From the IMG/VR virus record IMGVR_UViG_3300035665_000168, positions 1 to 31,978 of that record: a stretch of 31,978 nt of DNA, one strand, 5' to 3'. The translations under genes were made by a program, and so were the position numbers. Positions within the stretch are counted from its first letter, which is position 1. Each line of letters begins with the position of its first letter. This document shows positions 2,875 through 6,380 of this stretch, piece after piece. A model generated the notes under the pieces. It was not told the origin of the DNA. It did not search any database and was given only the letters and a program-made list of their open reading frames with translations. Source of the DNA: a virus.

Positions 2875-3207
2875 CTACCCGACGATCCGATAGAGGGCGG
2901 GCGCGTGGTAGCCCGTGGTGGGTTCTTCCACGTATACGAGTTCCACAAAGTGGAGACGCGCGAAGATGTCCGCGATCTCCTTGTTCTCGCTCCAATACTT
3001 CAAGAAGAACTCGCCCGGTTCGAGATTATCCTCGGAGTTTGAGGACAGCGTGGCGAACGCCTCGCCCGTGTCCGAGATCACCGCACGGACGGCGGTGTTC
3101 CCGTTCGCGTAGCACCCGCGCTCAACTCGAAGGCGTACCCCTTCGGAATCGCCCGCGGCCTGGTAGACGAACTCGCCCAGTGGAACCCATAGACCTTCGT
3201 ACGTCAT
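2875..3207 (-). CDS. Hypothetical protein, possibly DUF4313-like
   Basis: A 110-residue acidic protein. The start at 3207 has a near-perfect AAAGGAGG 6-7 bases upstream, so the in-frame extension above it was discarded. The central part (NGNTAVRAVISDTGEAFATL) followed by a helix-rich segment (SENKEIADIFARL) recalls DUF4313, a phage and plasmid family of unknown role; this is a tentative match from memory. Its start overlaps the end of the winged-helix gene by ATGA. Confidence 0.65.
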   Translation of the reverse strand: MTYEGLWVPLGEFVYQAAGDSEGVRLRVERGCYANGNTAVRAVISDTGEAFATLSSNSEDNLEPGEFFLKYWSENKEIADIFARLHFVELVYVEEPTTGYHAPALYRIVG

Positions 3208-4663: not shown

Positions 4664-5052
4664 CGAACCGTCCTCCTAACAATCTCCGCGATCGTCTCCG
4701 TCGTACCCGTGCGGGGTGCGTGGATCGCCTTCACCTTCTCCCGATACCGGGCCGATCGTTCGGCCTTCGTGGGGTCGATTTGATACTTCGTCCATTTCGC
4801 CACGTGAATCCCACCGTCGGGATCAACCGCGAGGAGACCCTTCTCGATGAGTTCGGGAATGTTCGCCGCGACGGAGAACGAGACGCACGCGTGGAGGTGA
4901 TCGAGAGACTCGAACCCTCCTGGGTGGTCCTGTTCTTTCGCCGCAAGGATCACCACCACGAAGGCCCACCGCGCCGCGTCCGAGGTGAGCGTCGCCACCT
5001 TCGGATCGCGTGGGGTTCCCACGTCGAACTTTGCCCACGGTCGCCCTTTCAT
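4660..5052 (-). CDS. Phage replication-initiator-like protein (N-terminal wHTH type)
   Basis: A 130-residue protein. PWAKFDVGTPRDPKVATL, a central helical part, a Gly-Gly turn (DHPGGFESLDHL), IPELIEKGLLAV and HVAKWTKYQID follow the order of the N-terminal domain of DnaD-like or replisome-organiser phage proteins. It ends soon after a basic segment (ERSARYREKVK), so it is shorter than full initiators and lacks a second domain. The ATG at 5052 overlaps the methyltransferase stop by ATGA, with the repeated GGAAGGAGG just upstream. It likely binds the phage origin or loads a host helicase; this is inference. Confidence 0.6.
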   Translation of the reverse strand: MKGRPWAKFDVGTPRDPKVATLTSDAARWAFVVVILAAKEQDHPGGFESLDHLHACVSFSVAANIPELIEKGLLAVDPDGGIHVAKWTKYQIDPTKAERSARYREKVKAIHAPRTGTTETIAEIVRRTVR

Positions 5053-6380
5053 CCGTTCGCCTCCTTCCAATACTTCGCGTCCACGGCGACAATCCGCCGC
5101 CCAATGAACTCCGCCACTGGTGCGACCACCCCATTCCCGATACACCGGTATCGGTTGGAGTCCAGTCCAATCGGGTTGAGCGGGTCGTCGTCCTCCGCGA
5201 TTCCGTCGGGCGGAACCACGAAGTCCGAAGAGTCTCGTCCGATGCGGAGCGTCCGATGCGCCCCGTCCTCTTCGAGTGATTGGTTGAACCCGTCAAAGAA
5301 TGTCCCCGTCCGCAACACCGCGGGTGCGCCCGCACTATGCGCGAAAGATTGGGCGACCTCTTCTGTCGCCTGGGCGTTAGATCCGAACCGTGATGGGAAG
5401 GAGACCGCGGGTTCCCCGTAGACAAGTTCGTCCTTTGCGCGGCGTGCGTTCAACGTTGGGGCGATCGGTTCTTTGGGGAAGTCGTAGAGTTCAAAGTTCC
5501 CGACCCGCCGCGAATCTTCCACGCCTTCGCGATCGTCCACCCCTTCGGCCAACCCATCAACACCTCGCACTCCGCCGGCGTTAGGCGACGGATGGACGAT
5601 GAGGTTGTCCGTTCCATCTCCGCGCGCTCCGTTTCTTGCGGCCGAAGACTGGATGGTGTTGGCGACGATGTGTCCGGCCTCAACGGTGGAGTTGATTCCC
5701 TTCCCGTGTCTGGCAATGATTGCGTTCGCGACATCCGCGCCAAAAGTTCCAACGCCTTCACGAGGGCCGTTGGGAGTTTCTTCCCCCTTCGATTGGCCCG
5801 GCGCAAGATGCCCGCACACGCCTTCGCACTCAAAGAGAACCTCCGCGGCGCGCTCACCTCCAAGATTTCCGAAAGCGTCGTTTCGTGCGGCGACAATGAA
5901 GACTCTCCGCCGCCTTTGTGCGACCCCGAAGAATCGGGCATCAAGAGTTCGCCACGCGAGACCATACCCCAGGGCTTCCACTTCACGAATGAGTCGGCCG
6001 AAGTCGCGGCCGCGATTGGAAGAGAAGAGGCCAGGGACGTTCTCCAACACGAACCACCGAGGTCGTCGTCGTTCCACAATGTCCAAGAATCGGAAGGCGA
6101 GACTTGATCGAGTCCCTTCCGTGAATCCTCGTCGCGCTCCCGCGGTTGAGAGATCCTGGCACGGGAACCCTCCCGAATAGATTTCGGCATCTGGAACCTC
6201 CTCGTCTTTGATCTTCGTGATGTCCCCGAAGTTGGGAACGCCTGGGAATCTTTCGGCAAGTACGGCCGAGGCGTACGGCTCAAACTCGCATAGGCTCACC
6301 GTGCGGATACCCGCGTTCTCAAATCCAAGATCAAGGCCACCCACACCGGAGAAGAAGGAGGCGTGTCGGAGTTCGTTCAT
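5049..6380 (-). CDS. DNA C5-cytosine methyltransferase with a split-frame motif IX
   Basis: A 443-residue open frame. It has motif I FFSGVGGLDLG (9-19), motif IV with the catalytic Cys GGFPCQDLS (70-78), motif VI ENV (113-115), motif VIII QRRRRVF (155-161) and motif X RYRCIGNGV (about 410-418). It transfers a methyl group from SAM to cytosine in DNA. The expected motif IX is missing from this frame but is present in the overlapping +1 frame as IRRLTPAECEVLMGWPKGWT (5534-5593). A second family-like block, TLSEILE to VKALE, is in the same alternate frame (5747-5878), although the main frame there is also coherent. The gene may be frameshifted, decayed or dual-coding. Its start overlaps the preceding stop by ATGA. 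Confidence 0.85.
   Translation of the reverse strand: MNELRHASFFSGVGGLDLGFENAGIRTVSLCEFEPYASAVLAERFPGVPNFGDITKIKDEEVPDAEIYSGGFPCQDLSTAGARRGFTEGTRSSLAFRFLDIVERRRPRWFVLENVPGLFSSNRGRDFGRLIREVEALGYGLAWRTLDARFFGVAQRRRRVFIVAARNDAFGNLGGERAAEVLFECEGVCGHLAPGQSKGEETPNGPREGVGTFGADVANAIIARHGKGINSTVEAGHIVANTIQSSAARNGARGDGTDNLIVHPSPNAGGVRGVDGLAEGVDDREGVEDSRRVGNFELYDFPKEPIAPTLNARRAKDELVYGEPAVSFPSRFGSNAQATEEVAQSFAHSAGAPAVLRTGTFFDGFNQSLEEDGAHRTLRIGRDSSDFVVPPDGIAEDDDPLNPIGLDSNRYRCIGNGVVAPVAEFIGRRIVAVDAKYWKEANG
5060..5078 (-). repeat. 19-base repeat carrying a Shine-Dalgarno site, copy 2
   Basis: Identical to 3422-3440. It provides the Shine-Dalgarno site for the gene starting at 5052 and encodes AKYWKE near the C-terminus of the cytosine methyltransferase. 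Confidence 0.75.

Follow-up and report, generated by a model that had tools for sequence, protein, structure and literature searches.

The methyltransferase locus and its two reading frames

The analysed stretch of DNA (hereafter the window) comprises the 31,978 bases of a record from an uncultivated virus, whose genes include those for a large terminase, a portal, a tail fibre and an exonuclease. Its minus strand encodes in frame 0 the large catalytic domain of a C5-cytosine methyltransferase (α) and, nested in the +1 frame of the same gene, a putative small-domain protein (β) that holds motif IX (Table 1). A sequence-only reading of this DNA had described the main frame as open and as carrying motifs I, IV, VI, VIII and X, and the reading of the frames agreed with it; motif IX, sought in the main frame at 5049-6380, was not found there. 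The TLSEILE box, the two-helix segment and motif IX were located in the +1 frame exactly where they had been reported. Motif X had been considered unusually far beyond motif IX, and the distance was found to be approximately 125 residues in frame 0, as this frame has to cross the β-coding stretch to reach motif X; the crossing also accounts for its fast evolution there. The +1 frame is free of stops from 6283 to 5450 on the minus strand. In the window alone such a stretch is unremarkable (P = 0.25 by synonymous shuffling), and the proof of dual coding therefore rests on the relatives.

Table 1 Features of the α and β reading frames in the window
Feature	Position	Strand	Frame and remarks
α, C5-methyltransferase large catalytic domain	5049..6380	minus	Frame 0; 443 aa from the first ATG; motifs I-VIII and X, without IX
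Motif I	6321-6356	minus	Frame 0
Motif IV	6147-6173	minus	Frame 0
Motif VI	6030-6050	minus	Frame 0
Suppressed synonymous change in relatives	5757..5996	minus	Codons -26 to +53 about motif VIII
β, nested ORF, small domain with motif IX	5450..5986	minus	+1 frame; 178 aa from the probable start GTG 5986; alternative ATG 5965
KWxxxG box (W..SG in relatives)	5966..5983	minus	+1 frame; upstream of motif VIII; conserved
Motif VIII	5889-5921	minus	Frame 0
TLSEILE box	5858..5878	minus	+1 frame; corresponds to the in-frame post-VIII segment of ordinary C5-methyltransferases
Two-helix segment, LSxKAxxGILRRAxRRGKxLPxxLxxAL, in the window FSLSAKACAGILRRANRRGKKLP	5741..5839	minus	+1 frame; helices predicted by AlphaFold2
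Motif IX, IRRLTPAECEVLMGWPKGWT	5534..5593	minus	+1 frame; hardly varies across the 41 non-redundant relatives
Frame-0 reading of the motif IX DNA, HPSPNAGGVRGVDGLAEGVDDRE	5526..5594	minus	Frame 0; probably a linker toward motif X
Motif X, RYRCIGNGVVAPVAEFIGRR	5094-5153	minus	Frame 0

Complementary matches to methyltransferase families

The α protein carries motif I, the PC of motif IV, the ENV of motif VI and motifs VIII and X of a C5-cytosine methyltransferase (PF00145/TIGR00675), whereas motif IX does not join them in one continuous chain and occurs only in the +1 frame. It matched PF00145 at profile positions 2-165 (E 1e-52) and TIGR00675 at positions 2-164 (E 2.8e-54), and it aligned to M.HhaI (E 1.6e-24). 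The +1 frame matched PF00145 weakly at positions 260-296, under the curated cut-off (E 0.009), and its protein gave one continuous match to TIGR00675 from LSEILE through motif IX (positions 181-303 of 329, E 1.3e-4), which falls under the whole-protein cut-off of this family, as expected for a part. In solved methyltransferases, the large domain contains most of the motifs and the small domain contains the variable region and motif IX (PMC3404938). Together with this layout, the complementary profile matches indicate that the two frames split the enzyme at its domain boundary. The sequence-only reading had likened both translations to segments found in phage methyltransferases or their neighbours; with the +1 translation as the sole query, annotated C5-methyltransferases of phages were retrieved, with identities reaching 70%.

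Motif IX of β was weakly similar to residues 270-293 of M.HhaI, RKLHPRECARVMGYPD (E about 0.1). Fold and sequence searches of the PDB gave no significant match to β, and no family covering the two-helix segment was found in Pfam or NCBIfam. When β was modelled alone with AlphaFold2, two confident helices were obtained (block-mean pLDDT about 87-97) and the remainder was mostly unordered (mean pLDDT 65, pTM 0.35 for the whole model), as would be expected if the chain folds on a partner. A β protein from the wider family likewise gave two confident helices and little else. The best viral structure match of β was BFVD A0A8S5LZA8 from Podoviridae sp. ctDgT26, a cytosine methyltransferase of 521 residues (E 1.8e-4, 27% over 188 columns), which may be a fusion of both parts in one chain.

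Conservation of both frames in the wider family

To follow the overlap in relatives, 98 non-redundant genes were compared, with codons counted from the first Q of QRRRRVF in motif VIII. In the anchored relatives the LSxKAxxGILRR segment lay in the +1 frame relative to motif VIII, except in L007/L008, where an indel has shifted the frames jointly, and in one mis-anchored locus. It was in the +1 frame in 74 of the 77 usable viral loci picked by frame-0 patterns, in all 76 anchored loci from bacterial genomes, and likewise in viral loci picked by +1 patterns. Homologues with one continuous frame, the outcome that the sequence-only reading had named as speaking against its proposal, were sought and not found among several hundred loci, none of which had an ORF joining the +1 segment and motif VIII.

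The test of synonymous sites that had been suggested for homologues was run on the 98 genes and revealed overlapping conserved frames. In frame 0, identical synonymous codons exceeded expectation, not corrected for phylogeny, by 0.05 far upstream and by an estimated 0.13 or so at codons -62 to -27; the excess climbed to about 0.5 at codon -26, peaked at 0.8 and was zero after +56. The bacterial set repeated this excess (0.43 to 0.60 over -26 to -14 and +10 to +52; 0.05 from +54), and the set selected by frame-0 patterns had the same constraint profile. Furthermore, only 2 stops were observed in the +1 frame at codons -49 to +50 against 173 expected when synonymous codons were shuffled within genes, and 91 of 93 genes were free of +1 stops against 17 expected. 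The Twister-type and BanI-like enzymes described below failed as negative control sets because both conserve a +1 frame, and the working controls were thus internal: the synonymous shuffles, the flanking parts of these genes (where the excess was near 0 beyond +56 and near 0.05 ahead of -60, rising mildly from -62) and the +2 frame, which had 213 stops where the +1 frame had 5.

The +1 protein itself is conserved, with W at -21 in 91 of the 98 genes, G at -17 in 89, E at -3 in 88 and LP at +41/+42 in all 98. Since part of the loci were found via +1 patterns, conservation within LSxKAxxGILRR and at motif IX partly reflects how the loci were selected. Codons +34 to +52, past the helices, lie outside every search pattern and motif filter, and here the mean pairwise identity was 0.56 in the +1 frame versus 0.23 in frame 0; over the helices it was 0.87 versus 0.38, and the +1 identity exceeded that of frame 0 across +22 to +53. 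These values run against the earlier suggestion of a variable region in which frame changes are tolerated. Conserved dual coding, another of the options then raised, is supported by the suppression of synonymous change, the depletion of +1 stops and the recurrence in relatives, all of them features of the sequences.

No start codon common to the wider family was found, and 17 of the 98 genes had no ATG, GTG or TTG in the 24 codons preceding the onset of constraint. A conserved Shine-Dalgarno sequence and start directly ahead of codon -26 was considered and rejected as not universal. Many relatives hold motif IX in frame 0 and yet also conserve the +1 segment, which points to a role of β beyond supplying motif IX alone.

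Several loci depart from the common layout. In a side branch (L011, L016, L023, L039, L042, L049 and L163), frame 0 ends shortly past motif VIII and motifs IX and X lie in another ORF that shares 29-95 bases with its end, an arrangement reminiscent of M.AquI or of a frameshift. In the Omegaviruses Thibault and Schatzie (L172 829-2700; L179 1333-2856), an HNH-endonuclease insertion separates motif VIII from the LSxILE box; in Schatzie it is annotated as an intron with boundaries undetermined in the annotation, and in Thibault the +1 frame contains an annotated ORF, gp104. The annotated methyltransferase CDS of Faecalibacterium phage FP_Toutatis (L341 1572-2983) fuses motifs IV-VI with the +1 segment, and motifs VIII, IX and X run on in a frame other than that of the annotated CDS.

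Phages sharing the split of the window

A class of loci was assembled by scanning with an alignment of the +1 protein and adding the initial relatives; its members carry one frame-0 ORF with motifs I-VIII and X but no IX, and one +1 ORF with the helices and IX. Besides the window, 49 loci from uncultivated phages in many assemblies share this split (50 analysed including the window), and 41 of them, including the window, formed a non-redundant set at less than 92% nucleotide identity. The motif IX residues R, R, L, P, E, E, L, P, G, W and T of the +1 frame were each present in 41/41, whereas the frame-0 residues beneath them vary, and RRLTPTECERLMGWPDGWT was nearly invariant in the +1 frame. 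In this class the suppression of synonymous change reappears at motif IX, where frame-0 synonymous codon identity was above expectation, mostly by 0.4-0.8. The 41 relatives had no +1 stops from 25 codons before the start of motif IX to 25 after it, and stops accumulate from 26 on. Three loci (L009, L010 and L027) were doubly open over 190 to 290 codons (P 0.002 to 0.015 by synonymous shuffling).

A start at codon -23 (GTG/ATG) or -16 (ATG) was present in 38 of the 41, and GTG 5986 and ATG 5965 occupy these positions in the window; the ribosome-binding sites ahead of the candidate β starts are weak. Two near relatives, the contigs L007 and L008, come from different metagenomes; past LSEILE (about 2990-3130) both carry the same 2-base change relative to the window, which breaks frame 0 after motif VIII and leaves both downstream frames open.

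The +1 frame in known phages and in other enzyme groups

Searches recovered the +1 protein from 139 records of phages and from 531 of plasmids, the plasmid records being mostly P1-like. The +1 frame of P1 dmt gives MPNTSEWHNDADACLLSQVLEQTSIPQRYFLSSKACAGILRRGEKRRKSLPPLLQMALQSVAKA and then a stop, inside an intact frame-0 gene with its own motif IX, and the same holds for Vibrio phage 138, the low-G+C Streptococcus phage Javan422, Caulobacter phage DMCA, Roseobacter phage CRP-821 and Virus Rctr41k. No annotation of the +1 frame was found in P1 dmt or these five, only the frame-0 gene. The +1 frame was found in hundreds of genes from phages and prophages; its segment ahead of motif IX, unannotated, is conserved in many full-length methyltransferases of P1 (dmt), of Vibrio, mycobacterial and Gram-positive phages, and of prophages of many phyla.

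Two further groups were examined in less depth than the first. Twister-type enzymes read EPDVGRVANGVSKRVDRLRGLGNAVVPQ in frame 0, and their +1 ORF, from WPRSGMMRNG, ends in NPTWVEWLMGYPSGWTDL, a motif IX; 21 of the 24 loci were stop-free in the +1 frame against 3.8 expected, with 3 stops against 52. In this group (L345-L424, e.g. L380 and L387), the frame-0 pattern EPxVGRVAxGxPxRVDRLxxLGNAVVPQ is read in the +1 frame as NPxWVEWLMGFPxGWT (motif IX). BanI-like enzymes of Gram-positive phages (L425-L505) are full-length in frame 0 and have W.KSGMM.NG...SLSDILEDEVPEKYFLS in the +1 frame directly past motif VIII. This segment was in the +1 frame in 48 of 50 anchored loci and in any other frame in none, and +1 stops numbered 39 against 131 expected. 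The best PDB match of the BanI-like +1 peptide was a weak one (E 0.43) to residues 194-214 of DNMT2, SLESIIEEDVDEKFLVPEK, which are read there in the ordinary frame.

A putative two-polypeptide enzyme

We regard it as probable that the window encodes a methyltransferase of two polypeptides, the large domain α in frame 0 and the nested small domain β in the +1 frame, the latter likely from an internal start, which would assemble as M.EcoHK31I does. Frame 0 would supply α with the SAM and catalytic motifs I-VIII, a fast-evolving linker (the frame-0 reading of the inner stretch) and motif X. The +1 frame would supply β, of about 170-180 aa, with the W..SG box, the LSEILE box, the two-helix segment and motif IX, which together would make up the small DNA-binding part that α lacks. 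By analogy with M.EcoHK31I, the two chains may assemble into an active enzyme. Translation of β would probably be initiated within the α gene, at GTG 5986 or ATG 5965, and not by frameshifting.

Programmed ribosomal frameshifting, by which ribosomes would read frame 0 through motif VIII, slip into the +1 frame and produce a fused protein with LSEILE, the helices and motif IX, seems unlikely. The +1 LSEILE box does closely trail motif VIII, as in ordinary in-frame enzymes, and the overlapping IX-X ORF of the side branch would fit a shift. However, both the constraint and the conservation of the +1 protein start at codon -26, upstream of motif VIII and beyond the reach of a later shift; β is therefore not solely the product of a post-VIII shift, and an internal start is likelier. 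The codon tables of the constrained stretch show no evident conserved slippery sequence, and the fused product would be without motif X unless a second, backward shift occurred. The programmed +1 shift proposed in the sequence-only reading thus finds no support, as +1 coding precedes motif VIII, the conserved W at -21 included.

It is quite improbable that the enzyme consists solely of the frame-0 protein, its small domain having diverged, and that the +1 ORF encodes an unrelated small protein such as a regulator or an anti-restriction protein. In the wider family, frame 0 does carry motifs IX and X of its own, with the +1 ORF closing shortly after the helices, but in the class of the window the canonical motif IX is itself in the +1 frame and the +1 protein fits the methyltransferase profile from LSEILE to IX. 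Decay or sequencing error, with two compensating indels in a once continuous gene, is hardly credible and was ruled out by the 49 other loci with the split: frame differences do exist (L007/L008 and FP_Toutatis), but the same frames are both open in 41 non-redundant phages from many assemblies, +1 stops are nearly absent and the segment was never in frame with motif VIII among the loci scanned. A single indel was likewise rejected on the evidence of the relatives.

With the two-polypeptide reading preferred for the window, there is perhaps an even chance that out-of-frame coding of elements of the small domain is an old, general and overlooked organisation of phage and prophage C5-methyltransferases, in which the +1 product would be a separately expressed subunit that acts also on enzymes with their own motif IX. 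This general reading would cover at least four groups, namely that of the window, P1 dmt and its relatives, the Twister/Dcm-like enzymes and the BanI-like enzymes of Gram-positive phages. Common to the four is a +1 frame that begins just before motif VIII with W..SG, followed in most families by LSDILE.

As judged from the reading frames, the split noticed in the window follows the two domains of the enzyme, and the +1 conservation extends far past enzymes without a frame-0 motif IX. Long same-strand overlaps between genes, with conservation in both frames, are seldom seen in DNA phages or bacteria, and the overlap in the window divides one enzyme at a domain boundary. No description of this overlap, or of its conservation across hundreds of phage genes, was found in openly licensed papers. 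Should the organisation be general, hundreds of methyltransferases of phages and prophages, P1 Dmt included, would carry an unannotated second protein, and expressing such genes in one frame may yield inactive or altered enzymes. It also becomes directly testable whether the domains arose as two chains and whether subunit supply controls methylation.

Comparison with known methyltransferases

P1 Dmt and the annotated phage enzymes resemble the window in having W..SG, LSxxLE and mostly the two-helix segment in the +1 frame over motif VIII. They differ from it in that frame 0 has its own motif IX and the +1 ORF stops soon past the helices. M.HhaI, M.HaeIII and other one-chain enzymes contain the same motifs in the same DNA order as the window, but each of them is encoded in one frame as one chain, whereas the window uses two frames.

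Two polypeptides also form one enzyme in M.AquI (CYCGRG) (PMC3404938). Its small subunit carries motifs IX and X together, whereas in the window motif X is in frame 0 and IX in the +1 frame, an arrangement that is not of the AquI type. The side branch above (e.g. L011, L023 and L163), in which a separate ORF downstream overlaps the first and carries IX and X, resembles M.AquI in this. The small polypeptide of M.EcoHK31I is encoded inside the gene of the large one, in a different frame. In this YGGCCR-specific enzyme, the large polypeptide contains motifs I-VIII and X and the second polypeptide contains motif IX (PMC3404938). The window, known from its reading frames and likened by motif layout, has the same division, with I-VIII and X on one predicted polypeptide and IX on another; M.EcoHK31I belongs to a bacterial restriction-modification system, whereas the gene in the window belongs to an uncultivated phage.
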